Source of the DNA: Flavobacterium psychrophilum | GTDB taxonomy: Bacteria; Bacteroidota; Bacteroidia; Flavobacteriales; Flavobacteriaceae | DNA: 64,000 nucleotides | Assembly (NCBI GenBank): GCA_001708385.1 | Contig: CP012388.1 | Location: forward strand, 2,418,001-2,482,000 | Reading direction: 5' to 3' | Shown here: positions 26,443 to 31,364 of the stretch, in pieces | Numbering within the stretch: position 1 is the first letter of the stretch | How the letters are laid out: each line of letters begins with the position of its first letter | The notes under the pieces: model-generated | What the model saw: only the letters and a program-made list of their open reading frames with translations | Database searches by the model: none | Told to the model about the DNA's origin: nothing | Made by a program: the position numbers and the translations under genes

Positions 26443-27462
26443 TTATATGCTGGCTTTAAACTGCTCCAGGAATCTAACGTCGTTTTCATAAAACATCCTG
26501 ATGTCGCCAATCTGGTATTGTAGCATCGCTATACGCTCTACGCCCATACCAAAAGCAAAACCATTGTATTTTGTAGCATCTATACCACAGTTGGTTAAAA
26601 CATGTGGGTCTACCATACCACAGCCGCCAATTTCAAGCCACCCTGTACCCTTTGTGATCCTATAGTCAGTCTCGGTCTTAAGGCCCCAGTAAATGTCAAT
26701 CTCGGCACTCGGCTCGGTAAAAGGAAAGTACGACGGGCGAAGACGGATCTTACTTTTGCCGAACATCTCTTTGGTAAAGTATAAAAGTGTTTGTTTAAGG
26801 TCTGCAAACGAAACATCTTTGTCAATATAAAGACCTTCTATCTGGTGGAATATACAGTGCGAACGCGATGATATAGCCTCATTCCTAAAAACCCTTCCCG
26901 GAGAAATAGTACGGATAGGCGGTTTGTTTTCTTCCATATAACGCACCTGTACCGATGATGTATGTGTTCTTAGCAACACATCGGGGTTGGTTTGTATAAA
27001 GAAAGTATCCTGCATATCGCGAGCAGGGTGGTATTCCGGCAGGTTAAGTGCGGTAAAGTTGTGCCAGTCATCTTCAATTTCCGGACCCTCGCTTACGTTG
27101 AAGCCAATGTTCGAGAAAATATCGATAATCTGGTTCTTTACGATAGATATAGGATGGCGTGAACCTACTGCAAATGGCTCACCCGGACGGGTAAGGTCAC
27201 CATAAATGCCTTTAGCCTCTTCTTTGCTTTCCAGTGCTTCTGTAATAAAAGCTACTTTTTCTTCAGCAGTTTTTTTCAGGCTGTTAACCACCTGTCCAAA
27301 TTCCTTTTTTTGTTCGTTAGGAACTGCTTTAAATTCAGCAAAAAAGTCATTAAGAAGGCCTTTTTTACCCAGGAACTTAATCCTGAACGCTTCCAGTTCT
27401 TCTTTGTTTTGAGTCTGAAATGCTTCAGCCTCTGCAATATATCCTTTAATTTTCTCTATCAT
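26443..27462 (-). CDS. pheS: phenylalanine--tRNA ligase alpha subunit
   Basis: The 339-residue catalytic subunit charges tRNA-Phe together with PheT. It has the N-terminal coiled coil, then the class II motifs: GSRHPIS with [54 protein letters not shown] and the motif 3 segment [14 protein letters not shown]. The start is placed at 27462 (MIEKIKGYI), because a longer form would overlap the promoter-like element. pheT is not adjacent, as is common in this phylum. Confidence 0.95.
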
Positions 27463-27482
27463 TGTTATTCTGTAAAGTGCTG

Positions 27483-27490
27483 CAAATTTA
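27483..27490 (-). promoter_or_regulatory. candidate -7 element TAAATTTG for pheS
   Basis: Exact TAnnTTTG match on the minus strand, ending 20 bases before the start codon at 27462. It supports the shorter PheS form. Confidence 0.5.
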
Positions 27491-27629
27491 GGCATTTTTA
27501 ATTTGTTGTGCTATTTGAGAGTGTCTTTAATTTTATGGTTTAGTACATAAAAATTAATGTTTACCTGCACATTTTCTTACTTAGCCTCAAAAATTATTTT
27601 TGTTGCAAAAGCGGCACTATGTTTGTCTC

Positions 27630-27748
27630 AGGTTTAAAGATTGATCATTGGTCATGACCACTACAGCCTCTTACTGCAAGCCCCCAGCGGTAGGTAAAGC
27701 TAAAACACAACATTAAGAACCCTGTTGGAACCACCCGCAGGGTTTTTT
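27630..27748 (+). ncRNA. array unit 1, putative sRNA
   Basis: Box A is at 27563, box B at 27585-27596 and the -7 element TATGTTTG at 27618-27625, so the start is taken as about 27630. One hairpin (27672-27677 with 27687-27692) shows the loop AAGCCCCCA. The CCTG/CAGG hairpin 1 of other units is missing or degenerate. The terminator pairs AACCCTG (27718-27724) with CAGGGTT (27738-27744) and ends in six T residues. Confidence 0.7.
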
Positions 27749-27847
27749 AATTCATATAATCACAACAGTTGTGTTAGTTAACCTGCACATTATCAGGGTT
27801 AGCCTCAAAAATTATTTCAGTTAAAAATCCTGCCGTACGTTTGCTTC

Positions 27848-28004
27848 AGAATTAAGAACATTACTAAAAGTTTTGATTGATATATAAATTGGTTGGTTGG
27901 TTGAAAGCCCTGTCGAAAGGCAGGCAAAATGGCAGTAATGCCCAAAGAATTACACTACTTACTACTACTTGAAAAACCGGTGTACTTACTGCACCGGTTT
28001 TTTT
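27848..28004 (+). ncRNA. array unit 2, divergent putative sRNA without CCCCC loops
   Basis: Boxes A and B are intact (27781 and 27803) and the -7 element TACGTTTG is at 27836-27843. Hairpin 1 (27909-27914 with 27919-27924) is closed by a GAAA tetraloop instead of a C-rich loop. Hairpin 2 (27935-27939 with 27949-27953) has the loop GCCCAAAGA, with only three C residues. The terminator pairs AACCGGTG with CACCGGTT (27975-27999) and has a T tract to 28004. Confidence 0.65.
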
Positions 28005-28100
28005 ATTGCTGTAAGTAAGCGAAAACAGTATTTACCTGCACATTCCTGCCGGTAACCTCAAAAATTATTTTGATTGCGAAAGCTGCCGTACGTTTGTCTC

Positions 28101-28275
28101 AGGTTTAAGAATTTAATAGGTTTTGATTTGATTGAATTAAGTCCTGTGTTGCCCCCAAGACAGGCGGTCCGGCAGAAGTGCCGGGCGTCATAAACAGTAT
28201 TCCGGAGCCCCCAACGGTATGCTGCAATAAAAAAGAGGCTGTATCATTTTTAAAATGATTACCAGCCTCTTTTTT
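28101..28275 (+). ncRNA. array unit 3, putative sRNA with an extra hairpin
   Basis: The -7 element TACGTTTG is at 28089-28096. Hairpin 1 (28143-28147 with 28160-28164) shows CCCCC at 28152-28156. An extra perfect 6-bp hairpin with a GAAG loop lies at 28169-28184 and is found in no other unit. Hairpin 2 (28195-28204 with 28215-28224, one mismatch) shows CCCCC at 28208-28212. The terminator (28232-28275) is long and nearly symmetric, so it could also stop the convergent oxidoreductase gene. Confidence 0.75.
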
Positions 28276-28300
28276 ATTATAGGTCATCACGATAATTGTT

Positions 28301-28891
28301 TCAATTTACTATTTCGTCAACAACTTTATTCGCCTGTGCAAACAGGGCATCATAATGCGCCTGGTCCCTTTCTCCTTCAAAACCTATAGTGTCGTACAGA
28401 AATTCAGCCTTTGCGTCGTTCACGCCACAGTATACCGACAAGCTTTCGATCATCATGTGTTTCATGTACTCGTAATTGCCCTTTGTTTCGAAAGCTTCCT
28501 CCGTTTCGCCTGTCAATGCAATCCATCTGGTTTTATTAACGGGAAGCCTGTTGCCTTTTCCATAAGCTAGTCCGTTAGTCCAGACTTTGTCTATATATCC
28601 TTTTAAAATAGCAGGGAAAGAATACCACCAAACAGGGAACACGATAAATAAGGTGTCTACACCCTTCAGGCTCTCAAACAGGGTTCTTACTTCTTTGGTG
28701 TACGGATAGTTAATATCATCCCATTTGGGCTCGTCTACTTCATTCATAACAGGATTAAAGCCATATCTGTATAGGTCGAGTTCGCTTACATGCAGGCCTT
28801 TTTCCTCGGCATGAATTTTCATCGAATTTACAATCTGTGCAGTAAGTGAGTCTATCCTGGGATGCGCCCATACAAAATGTACTTTTTTCAT
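28301..28891 (-). CDS. NAD(P)H oxidoreductase, flavodoxin-like fold (quinone reductase type)
   Basis: This 196-residue flavodoxin-fold protein of the NQO1/MdaB/YwrO group has FVWAHPRIDSLTAQIV near the N-terminus (FMN or FAD phosphate loop) and VFPVWWYSFPAILKGYIDKV around residues 78-97, both typical. It probably reduces quinones or electrophiles by two electrons with NAD(P)H in the cytosol. It lies on the minus strand inside the sRNA array, between units 3 and 4, with its own promoter-like element at 28926-28933. The array terminator at 28232-28275 lies just past its stop codon. Confidence 0.9.
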   Translation of the reverse strand: MKKVHFVWAHPRIDSLTAQIVNSMKIHAEEKGLHVSELDLYRYGFNPVMNEVDEPKWDDINYPYTKEVRTLFESLKGVDTLFIVFPVWWYSFPAILKGYIDKVWTNGLAYGKGNRLPVNKTRWIALTGETEEAFETKGNYEYMKHMMIESLSVYCGVNDAKAEFLYDTIGFEGERDQAHYDALFAQANKVVDEIVN

Positions 28892-28925
28892 AGCGGTAGG
28901 GTAGCTCGTTGATGAGCAGGAAGAA

Positions 28926-28933
28926 CAAATTTA
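28926..28933 (-). promoter_or_regulatory. candidate -7 element TAAATTTG for the oxidoreductase
   Basis: Exact TAnnTTTG match on the minus strand, 34 bases before the start codon at 28891. Confidence 0.45.
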
Positions 28934-29095
28934 AAGGTATCAATGGTAAAGCAGAACACATTTAACGAAGTGTTGTACTCATGGATTAGAAAGACTGTTA
29001 GCCGCGAAAACGGTTTCTCGCCCTGTTTACCTACACATTTTTAGTACTTACCTCAAAAATTATGTCGGTTAAAAATGCTGCCGTACGTTTGTCTC

Positions 29096-29223
29096 AGGTT
29101 TGATTGATTGGTTACAAGTCCTGCTGGTACCCCCGACAGCAGGCAATTTTAAAAAGACATACATTTTGCCCCCAAAATTATGCTGCTAAAAAAACCTGTG
29201 CTTCAGCAAGCGCAGGTTTTTTT
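29096..29223 (+). ncRNA. array unit 4, putative sRNA
   Basis: Box A is at 29029 and box B at 29051, with the -7 element TACGTTTG at 29084-29091. Hairpin 1 has a perfect 7-bp stem (29120-29126 with 29137-29143) and CCCCC at 29130-29134. Hairpin 2 (29158-29182) shows GCCCCC at 29168-29173, with inner stem ATTTT/AAAAT. The terminator pairs CCTGTGC (29195-29201) with GCGCAGG (29210-29216), including one G-U pair, and ends in seven T residues. Confidence 0.8.
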
Positions 29224-29330
29224 ATGCCATTTTACAGATAAAAAGTGCTGTTGGTCGATTGAATTCTGAAAATCTGCTTCAAATTTCTTCCCCTTAAAAA
29301 CATATAGTAGTTTTAATATAAGTTTTAAAG

Positions 29331-29457
29331 TCATTTTTGGTATAAAACAAAAGTCCTGCTTCGGGGGTTGCAGGCAAACTGAAATACATTACGTGCCCCC
29401 CACGTATGTAGATTTAGTCAAAAAAAGACCTGTGTTATTACTAGCGCAGGTCTTTTT
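29331..29457 (+). ncRNA. array unit 5, divergent sRNA with a GGGGG loop
   Basis: The promoter is degenerate: TAAGTTTT at 29319-29326 and only a box B remnant (CCTTAAAAA at 29292-29300). Hairpin 1 (29355-29359 with 29370-29374) carries GGGGG at 29363-29367 where sister units carry CCCCC. Hairpin 2 is the strongest of the family, ten pairs with one bulge (29385-29410), and its loop is exactly CCCCC (29396-29400). The terminator pairs GACCTGTG with CGCAGGTC (29427-29452). Loop 1 could pair with loop 2 or with the loops of sister RNAs. Confidence 0.7.
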
Positions 29458-29533
29458 GTTCTGTTAACCGACACAATTTCTCCCTTAACCTCAAAAATTA
29501 TTTTGGTTGAATATCCTACCGTAAGTTTGTCTC

Positions 29534-29676
29534 AGGTTTGAAATTAATACGTTTGATTTGATTGATTAAAAAGTCCTGTTTCGCCCCCAAGTGCAGGCAA
29601 AAATTACAAACAACACTTGCCCCCAAAAGTATGTTGTTACTTAAAAAACCCTGAGTTTAGCGACTCAGGGTTTTTT
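29534..29676 (+). ncRNA. array unit 6, putative sRNA
   Basis: Box A variant AACCGACACA is at 29466, box B at 29489 and the -7 element TAAGTTTG at 29522-29529. Hairpin 1 (29575-29597) shows CCCCC at 29584-29588. Hairpin 2 (29609-29638) shows CCCCC at 29620-29624 on an AACAACA/TGTTGTT stem. The terminator pairs CCCTGAGT (29649-29656) with ACTCAGGG (29663-29670) and has A and T tracts of six. It is nearly identical to unit 10. Confidence 0.8.
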
Positions 29677-29800
29677 AATGCACTATGTTTTGATATAACA
29701 AATGTGGCCTATATCCAGAATTAAAGAATGTTTACCTGCACATTTTTACTACTGACCTCAAAAATTATGTTGGTTAAAAATACTGCCGTACGTTTGTCTC

Positions 29801-29923
29801 AGGTTTGATTGATTGGTTACAAGTCCTGCTGCTGCCCCCACAGCAGGCAATTTTACAAAACAACATATTTGCCCCCAAAAGTATGTTACTAAAAAATCCT
29901 GCGTTGGTAGCGCAGGATTTTTT
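29801..29923 (+). ncRNA. array unit 7, putative sRNA (best match to the consensus)
   Basis: Box A is at 29734 and box B at 29756, with the -7 element TACGTTTG at 29789-29796. Hairpin 1 has a perfect 7-bp stem (29825-29831 with 29841-29847) and CCCCC at 29835-29839. Hairpin 2 (29862-29887) shows CCCCC at 29872-29876. The terminator pairs TCCTGCG with CGCAGGA (29897-29917) and ends in six T residues. Confidence 0.85.
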
Positions 29924-30062
29924 ATTTGGTGTTATAGCGTACTTCTCACTATTCAAATTCAAAAATCTAAATACCCTTTTTTCATTTCCGGATTAACCGA
30001 CACATTTTTAGTGCCTACCTCAAAAATTATGTTGGTTAAAAATACTGGCGTAGGTTTGTCTC

Positions 30063-30187
30063 AGGTTTGATTGATTGGTTACAAGTCCTGCTGAATGCCC
30101 CCACAGCAGGCAATTTTACAAAACAACATATTTGCCCCCAAAAGTATGTTACTAAAAAATCCTGCGTTTGGTAATGCGGGATTTTTT
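30063..30187 (+). ncRNA. array unit 8, putative sRNA
   Basis: Box A variant AACCGACACATT is at 29995, box B at 30019 and the -7 element TAGGTTTG at 30051-30058. Hairpin 1 (30087-30093 with 30104-30110) shows CCCCC at 30098-30102. Hairpin 2 (30125-30150) shows CCCCC at 30135-30139. The terminator (30154-30187) differs from unit 7 by an A to G change that turns a T-A pair into a T-G wobble, so the stem is kept. Confidence 0.85.
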
Positions 30188-30325
30188 ATTTGGTGTTATA
30201 TCGTACTTCTCACTATTCAGATTCAAAATCTAAATATCCTTTTTTCATTTATAGATTAACCGACACATTTTTAGCGCCTACCTCAAAAATTATGTTGGTT
30301 AAAAATACTGCCGTAGGTTTGTCTC

Positions 30326-30448
30326 AGGTTTGATTGATTGGTTACAAGTCCTGCTGACTGCCCCCACAGCAGGCAATTTTACAAAACAACATATTTGCCC
30401 CCAAAAATGTTGCTAAAAAATCCTGCGTTTGGTAATGCGGGATTTTTT
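30326..30448 (+). ncRNA. array unit 9, putative sRNA
   Basis: A near copy of unit 8, 263 bp downstream. The -7 element TAGGTTTG is at 30314-30321. Hairpin 1 (30350-30356 with 30367-30373) shows CCCCC at 30361-30365. Hairpin 2 (30388-30411) shows CCCCC at 30398-30402 and has lost three bases on the 3' side of the stem compared with unit 8. The terminator is at 30415-30448. Confidence 0.85.
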
Positions 30449-30587
30449 ATTTGATGTCATGACTGACTTCTCACTTATTCAGATTTAAGATCCGGTCATC
30501 TAACATCAAGTTTCCGGTTAACCGACACATTTACACCGGTAACCTCAAAAATTATTTTAGCTGAAAATCCCGCCGTACGTTTGTCTC

Positions 30588-30734
30588 AGGTTTGAAATTA
30601 ATACGTTTGATTTGATTGATTAAAAGTCCTGTTTCGCCCCCAAGTGCAGGCAAAAAAAGAATTACAAAACGACACTTGCCCCCAAAAGTATGTTGTTATT
30701 AAAAAACCCTGAGTTTAGCGACTCAGGGTTTTTT
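30588..30734 (+). ncRNA. array unit 10, putative sRNA
   Basis: A near copy of unit 6 placed after units 7-9. The -7 element TACGTTTG is at 30576-30583. Hairpin 1 (30628-30650) shows CCCCC at 30637-30641. Hairpin 2 (30668-30697) shows CCCCC at 30679-30683; an A to G change at 30671 against unit 6 replaces A-T by a G-T wobble and keeps the stem. The terminator (30701-30734) has the same stem as unit 6. Confidence 0.85.
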
Positions 30735-30811
30735 AATGGCGTTTACCTACAAATTTGGGGGTTTCACCTCAAAAATTATAGTAACATCTAAATCTGCTAT
30801 AGCTTAGCCTC

Positions 30812-30957
30812 AAGTTTAAGTTATTAGAGAAATTTGTAAGGAAATTTCTCTGCAAGTCCTGCCTTAACCTGCAGGCAATTACAATAAACATTACGCTTTT
30901 AAAGCAGAATGTATTTCTTTTTCACACTTAAAGCCCGTGCCTAGCACAGGCTTTTTT
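30812..30957 (+). ncRNA. array unit 11, divergent putative sRNA without C-rich loops
   Basis: Box B is intact at 30767, but the -7 element is TAGCTTAG (30800-30807), one base off consensus. A perfect 9-bp hairpin (30827-30835 with 30842-30850) is added before hairpin 1. Hairpin 1 (30858-30862 with 30871-30875) keeps CCTGC/GCAGG but has the loop CTTAACCT. Hairpin 2 (30888-30912) has an inner GCTTTTAAAGC palindrome and no C run. The terminator is at 30930-30957. Confidence 0.6.
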
Positions 30958-31001
30958 ATTTGGTAGTGCAGCGTATTCTTAAAAACCTGAAACAAAAAAA
31001 T

Positions 31002-31009
31002 TACTTTTG
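31002..31009 (+). promoter_or_regulatory. candidate -7 element TACTTTTG for the ArsC/Spx-like gene
   Basis: Exact TAnnTTTG match ending only 4 bases before the ATG at 31014. If used, the mRNA would be leaderless or nearly so. Confidence 0.45.
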
Positions 31010-31013
31010 CAGT

Positions 31014-31364
31014 ATGAAAGCTATATTTTACCTGAAAACCTGCGATACATGCAGGAAGATTCTAAAATCGTTACCTACTACCGAAGGTTTTACACTTCGT
31101 GAAATAAAATCAGAAGCCATTACACCTGCAGAGCTTGAAGAAATGAGACGCCTTGCGGGAAGTTACGAAGCGCTTTTTAGCCGTAAAACAACCCTTTATA
31201 AAGAACGCGGACTTAAAGATGCAGTGCTTACCGAAGATGATTATAAAAACCTCATCCTGGAGCATTATACCTTTTTAAGCCGACCTGTTATTGTAGATGG
31301 CGAAACTATATTTGTTGGAAACAGCAAGCCTGTAGTTGAAGCAGCTATTGCACATTTGGGATAA
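31014..31364 (+). CDS. ArsC/Spx-like thioredoxin-fold protein
   Basis: This 116-residue protein of the arsenate reductase (ArsC/YffB/Spx) family has the N-terminal YLKTCDTCRKIL, with Cys10 and Cys13, and later LSRPVIVDGETIFVG near residue 90, as in the family. The start at 31014 is chosen because an upstream in-frame extension is not family-like and runs into the array terminator. A role in arsenate reduction is not certain, since many members act in other redox tasks. It directly follows the sRNA array. Confidence 0.85.
   Translation: MKAIFYLKTCDTCRKILKSLPTTEGFTLREIKSEAITPAELEEMRRLAGSYEALFSRKTTLYKERGLKDAVLTEDDYKNLILEHYTFLSRPVIVDGETIFVGNSKPVVEAAIAHLG

Follow-up and report, generated by a model that had tools for sequence, protein, structure and literature searches.

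The 64,000-nucleotide stretch of the Flavobacterium psychrophilum genome considered here (GCA_001708385.1, contig CP012388.1, positions 2,418,001 to 2,482,000 of the forward strand; hereafter the window) contains an array of eleven divergent paralogous units at 27559-30962, all in one orientation and repeating in register (repeat families D1-D3). The array is flanked by pheS on one side and by an ArsC-family gene on the other, and a flavodoxin-like gene (PF02525) interrupts it between units 3 and 4 (Table 1). With predicted lengths of 124-183 nucleotides (nt), the units very probably constitute a row of tandem small RNA (sRNA) genes under RNA selection, which, to judge from their sequence, are likely transcribed. 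As developed below, they may serve as a signal-controlled sponge for a second, G-rich sRNA.

Structure and conservation of the units

The first-pass annotation of this DNA had proposed a terminator for each unit, stems that change while their pairing is kept, loops that always read CCCCC, and a signature of RNA selection with neither a conserved reading frame nor a fitting known family. Most of this picture is borne out. The units are predicted to fold into hairpins and a terminator, and each of the eleven has a hairpin with a T run at its 3' end. The stem differences to which attention had been drawn, A-T to G-T in hairpin 2 of units 6 and 10 and T-A to T-G in the terminators of units 7 and 8, are both present in the sequence. 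Covariation was assessed in an alignment of eleven units, seven from this genome and four from Flavobacterium sp. AG291 (G048). Its rows share ancestry and had been fitted to the model, which inflates the significance of the following values and makes them an upper view: standard pairing occurs in 95.3% of pair cells, compared with 86.5% in shuffles and reached by 0 of 500 of them; two-sided change occurs at 10 of 30 pairs, again reached by 0 of 500; and the observed number of further pair types was equalled by 12 of 500. The paired stem changes support selection on the RNA. Furthermore, no small open reading frame is common to the units, the only three ATG-initiated frames of at least eight codons being unshared, and comparison of the window with 4227 Rfam families gave no match at gathering score. 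On six related loci, including the AG291 array, Rfam gave 11 matches, all sub-threshold.

The loops, however, are not invariably CCCCC. On the plus strand, 17 of the 21 CCCCC start positions of the window fall in the array, and at least one such loop run is present in nine of the eleven units, two runs being confined to the seven units 3, 4 and 6-10. Unit 1 possesses a single run, units 2 and 11 possess none, and in unit 5 hairpin 1 carries GGGGG and hairpin 2 carries C6. Unit 5 might pair with the loops of sibling units or with itself. In addition, a segment of the UUGGUU/UUGAUUGG type is visible by eye in the 5' part of several units (27630-30962; L053, L237, L239), both with and without CCCCC, and also in the units of G206 and G224; it is possibly a second seed.

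A diverged array lies at the same place, beside pheS, in AG291. Five profile-supported units are divergent from pheS there, a sixth was recognized by eye, two more lie ~9 kb off, and a ninth box-driven, terminator-ended unit, which lacks CCCCC, is located elsewhere on the contig (L309, C5:194436-194511, minus). A search of relatives with an RNA model, as had been proposed at the outset, recovered this array: model R1, built from six units of this genome only, picked up four AG291 units with E-values of 1e-9 to 3e-6 among 249 genomes. Units without CCCCC loops exist in AG291 too, and its units e and f look, by eye, like units 2 and 11 of this genome. Weak R1 matches, present in 174 of the 249 genomes, were rejected; the seven inspected (five genomes besides AG291 and two AG291 sites) appeared by eye to be ordinary terminators behind coding genes. 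Among 30 genomes examined at the pheS locus, G206 and G224 apparently have one unit each, by inspection. Array size can be compared across these relatives: eleven units here, about eight and a ninth in AG291, and apparently one in two genomes.

Promoters and a probable LytTR regulator

A promoter of their own had been ascribed to all eleven paralogues, and ten of them indeed share one, in which an ACC...(A/G)CC direct repeat with a period of 21 base pairs (bp) precedes a TAnnTTTG-type box; unit 5 is without box A/B. Box A reads, for example, ACCTGCACA or ACCGACACA, and the second (A/G)CC, 21 bp on, is box B, CCTCAAAAATTAT, which is A-T rich. In F. psychrophilum the primary sigma factor is described as having TAnnTTTG for its -7 box (PMC9723704); in unit 11 this box is degenerate (TAGCTTAG). 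Genome-wide, 10 of the 16 matches to box B with at most one mismatch fall in the array; the six outside it were discarded, none of them having, by eye, an ACC 21 bp upstream. With two direct repeats approximately two helical turns apart and upstream of the -7 box, the ten promoters fit a LytTR-type site.

Among 398 genomes of the genus, promoter-profile matches below 1e-8 were found only in this genome and in AG291, the training sequences of the profile including all ten own matches and seven of the eight strong AG291 matches. Within this genome, the ten array promoters, themselves training sequences, are the only matches below an E-value of 0.02. The profile gave 10.3 bits for the G224 unit and nothing for the G206 unit, and one match in G323 (1.5e-7) lies ahead of a gene whose product looks secreted and has a Por_Secre_tail domain. 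Weak matches to this profile (R2; E <=0.01, 148 of 398 genomes) were set aside; in 18 of the 28 loci inspected they fall, by eye, on a single conserved GTPase-like coding gene and are taken as chance. In G088 (L066), a LytTR-type box pair precedes a -7-like box and a short stretch that ends in a terminator, possibly another box-driven sRNA.

A search for the two-box pattern in the GTDB species set, from which this genome is possibly excluded, returned 32 stretches. Two belong to AG291, two to unrelated phyla (L147 and L148, taken as chance), and the other 28 to Chryseobacterium, Weeksellaceae, Flectobacillus and a strain listed as Cellulophaga. Of these 28 loci, 26 have a LytTR response regulator gene that ends 49-678 bp upstream of the box site on the same strand; in the remaining two, L138 and L145, no LytTR gene was present in the DNA examined at the locus. 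The encoded proteins share 50-63% identity with one of the eleven LytTR proteins of this genome, compared with at most ~43% near-full length for the other ten (one 77-residue stretch reaching 45%). Orthologues of this regulator are encoded in 68 of the 398 genomes at >=54% identity, this genome included, and among 20 Flavobacterium loci of the regulator, 4 carry a box site directly behind it (profile, E <=0.03). In this genome, the regulator gene (G000:C1 1830342-1831019) has a kinase gene (PF06580) ahead of it, and the protease gene is also kept. Elsewhere the site accompanies the orthologous regulator; here the regulator has no site beside it, and strong matches are confined to the array promoters. 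Most simply, therefore, and to judge from orthology, this LytTR system would now act on the array in trans. On this sequence evidence, control of the array by the two-component system is probable.

Three cases were compared with Pfam (L120, L126 and, in this genus, G376), and in each the gene after the site encodes a dioxygenase (PF00775). In G070, the box site separates the regulator from an M43 metalloprotease gene (Pfam), and AG291 has a box site ahead of what looks like the same M43 metalloprotease gene. The loci L119-L149 (Chryseobacterium, Flectobacillus and others), with a LytTR regulator, boxes A and B and, where checked, a dioxygenase gene, represent an apparently undescribed conserved regulator-target pair.

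A predicted G-rich partner RNA and a possible role of the array

The complement of the loops, TTGGGGGCA, occurs at 23 sites in this genome, seven of which are the opposite strand of the array. Two of the 16 sites outside it correspond to tandem units located behind purF; these possess a promoter-like box, a GGGGGCA that is unpaired in the predicted fold, and a terminator. This purF-downstream G-rich sRNA was found in 9 of 29 genomes, the set of 30 having been picked for carrying the regulator, and its GGGGG is intact in 15 of 16 copies; in the set examined it is more widespread than the array. Its copy number varies, three copies being present behind purF in G243 (L268), one of them with GGGG only.

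The unpaired G-rich stretch has an exact antisense match of 12-15 nt in units 4 and 6-10 and of 10 nt in unit 3, against a background of 5680 windows in which the longest match was 11 nt (5 windows). When folding costs were included (cofold), the predicted net binding gain of these seven units lay between -15 and -21 kcal/mol, with 0 of 60 seed shuffles reaching it in each case. Complementarity extended beyond chance is thereby found in 7 of the 11 units by energy and in 6 of 11 by length. Similarly, the best AG291 units match the G-rich sRNA over 12 and 13 nt.

Together, these matches give about an even chance that the array is an inducible decoy, or sponge, of the G-rich sRNA. The fuller proposal, to which we assign a probability of roughly 0.4, is that tandem RNA decoys driven by a two-component system copy the C-rich elements of a messenger RNA (mRNA) leader and sweep up a conserved G-rich sRNA, forming an amplified, signal-controlled sponge array in Bacteroidota. 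A signal would be relayed by the kinase to the LytTR regulator, which would bind the boxes in trans and turn on ten promoters; the C-rich loops of seven units would then trap the G-rich sRNA, and the mRNA targets of the latter would be freed. Units 1, 2, 5 and 11 perhaps have another role, exerted through the 5' UUGGUU-type segment that some units possess. We infer all of the decisive steps, namely transcription of the units, binding of the regulator in trans, pairing between loops and G-rich sRNA in the cell, and titration as the outcome, from sequence.

The best candidate target is the gene of a 565-residue protein (L317:1298-3392, G000:C1 ~2125 kb) with a start that resembles a signal peptide by eye and with a long leader; its first 450 residues gave no Pfam match. 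The leader contains five C runs, one of them directly before the start codon, and matches the second G-rich sRNA over 14, 11 and 11 nt. The array loops would, on this view of the gene, mimic its leader.

Several observations weigh against the sponge proposal. In this genome, no box site lies beside the regulator. TTGGGGGCA is not enriched outside the array (16 sites, compared with 12 for the reversed control), and the partner was found through a search for the loop complement itself. One other site, at 3706182, matches a unit over 14 nt, and the 10-nt match of unit 3 has a length that the background also reaches (27 of 5680 windows >=10). Units 1, 2, 5 and 11 are inconspicuous in cofold and are no predicted decoys. 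Unfolded duplex energies clearly beat shuffles only for units 4 and 7-9, and were dropped as a criterion since they do not discriminate. Five genomes (G133, G070, G024, G243 and G324) have the G-rich sRNA with no array seen at pheS. Finally, the surroundings of 410 start codons show no excess of CCCCC runs (6, compared with 7 for GGGGG), and the target set may therefore be small. As the partner was sought as a complement and a 14-nt match exists at 3706182, match length alone is no proof; the case for the partner rests instead on an sRNA-like unit whose seed is unpaired, occurs in duplicate and is conserved. The 3706182 site itself (L319, G000:C1, C strand) is a TGCCCCCAAAA stretch directly 5' of a terminator-like hairpin with a CCCCC loop, and possibly belongs to another C-rich RNA.

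The units might, rather, be multicopy trans-acting sRNAs which pair with mRNAs via their C-rich loops or the 5' UUGGUU-type segment, the copies providing dose and speed and the match to the G-rich sRNA being incidental. The FopS multicopy sRNAs of Bacteroides are described as repressing mRNAs directly (PMC11697453), units without CCCCC loops occur both here and in AG291, and the 5' segment is seen by eye in units of either kind. Yet GGGGG is not commoner than CCCCC near the starts of the same 410 genes, and the longest loop matches found point to a conserved sRNA. We consider direct action on mRNAs rather unlikely.

Titration of an RNA-binding protein, as performed by CsrB/RsmZ-type RNAs, would account for the recurrence of the same short motif in two hairpin loops in each of seven units, and leaders with the motif, such as that of L317, which also shows it in hairpins, would then be targets of the protein. 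However, the match runs past the C run into A/T flanks that are complementary to the G-rich sRNA, and no candidate protein was found, none having been searched for; this explanation seems to us improbable. It is scarcely credible that the boxes serve the LytTR regulator as DNA decoys, or that the array is a set of duplications without RNA function, for while the boxes are the best-conserved part across units, the stems change in pairs with the loops kept, every unit ends in a terminator hairpin, and an RNA model built from the units of this genome matches four AG291 units.

Table 1. Predicted features of the array and its neighbouring genes (positions in the window)
Feature	Position	Strand	Remarks
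pheS	26443-27495	-	flanks array
Promoter of unit 1	27559..27635	+	box A, box B (GCCTC variant), -7 TATGTTTG
Unit 1, predicted sRNA	27630..27753	+	one CCCCC run; no predicted decoy
Promoter of unit 2	27777..27853	+	
Unit 2, predicted sRNA	27848..28008	+	no CCCCC run; like AG291 unit e (by eye)
Promoter of unit 3	28030..28106	+	
Unit 3, predicted sRNA	28101..28283	+	two CCCCC runs; 10-nt match to G-rich sRNA
Flavodoxin-like gene (PF02525)	28301-28891	-	interrupts array
Promoter of unit 4	29025..29101	+	
Unit 4, predicted sRNA	29096..29226	+	two CCCCC loops; 14-nt match to G-rich sRNA
Unit 5, predicted sRNA	29329..29459	+	without box A/B; no predicted decoy
Promoter of unit 6	29463..29539	+	
Unit 6, predicted sRNA	29534..29680	+	two CCCCC loops; 12-nt match to G-rich sRNA
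Promoter of unit 7	29730..29806	+	
Unit 7, predicted sRNA	29801..29925	+	two CCCCC loops; 13-nt match to G-rich sRNA
Promoter of unit 8	29992..30068	+	
Unit 8, predicted sRNA	30063..30188	+	two CCCCC loops; 13-nt match to G-rich sRNA
Promoter of unit 9	30255..30331	+	
Unit 9, predicted sRNA	30326..30449	+	two CCCCC loops; 15-nt match to G-rich sRNA
Promoter of unit 10	30517..30593	+	
Unit 10, predicted sRNA	30588..30738	+	two CCCCC loops; 12-nt match to G-rich sRNA
Promoter of unit 11	30741..30817	+	degenerate -7
Unit 11, predicted sRNA	30812..30962	+	no CCCCC run; no predicted decoy
ArsC-family gene	30960-31364	+	flanks array

Relation to known systems

Small-RNA networks of flavobacteria are little mapped, and the open-licence literature searched yielded no account of an array of this kind or of flavobacterial sponges. 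The circuit put forward here is defined by sequence in each of its parts, from the regulator and its sites through the sRNA array to the predicted partner sRNA and the candidate target. Neither regulator nor G-rich partner figured in the first-pass annotation, which had left function open.

Listeria LhrC and the streptococcal csRNAs are multicopy RNAs with C/U-rich loops that act on mRNAs and are each governed by one two-component system with an OmpR-type regulator. The array resembles them in copy number, probable two-component control and loops, and differs in phylum and type of regulator, with no Rfam match. In Enterobacteria, SroC and the ChiX decoy sequester an sRNA by mimicking its target and consist of single transcripts or pieces of mRNA; the mimicry would be alike here, but the array consists instead of dedicated, probably inducible units.

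The binding motif of BtsR is an ACC-type direct repeat with a period of ~21 bp. BtsS/BtsR and YpdA/YpdB are described as pairs of a kinase and a LytTR regulator that control transporter genes (PMC5552118). The same combination of kinase and LytTR regulator is seen here, whereas the genes behind the sites are sRNAs or, in relatives, those of a dioxygenase or an M43 protease.

The FopS family of Bacteroides thetaiotaomicron, as characterized in PMC11697453, comprises 14 paralogous sRNAs of ~65-70 nt with their own promoters, which are located at many kinds of loci, vary in copy number between species, have an R1' seed at their 5' end, bind RbpB and repress susC-type mRNAs directly. Both families are large sets of paralogous sRNAs from Bacteroidota with their own promoters and a species-variable copy number; the array units, however, are longer than FopS, lie in one tandem array and possess a LytTR-type box. 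In F. psychrophilum itself, Rfp18 is reported to be a conserved structured sRNA whose targets include secreted metalloproteases (PMC9723704). It shares genus and conserved structure with the units and, in a comparison made by description only, differs from them in being presented as a single sRNA. FopS and Rfp18 are the nearest Bacteroidota precedents found for the array.

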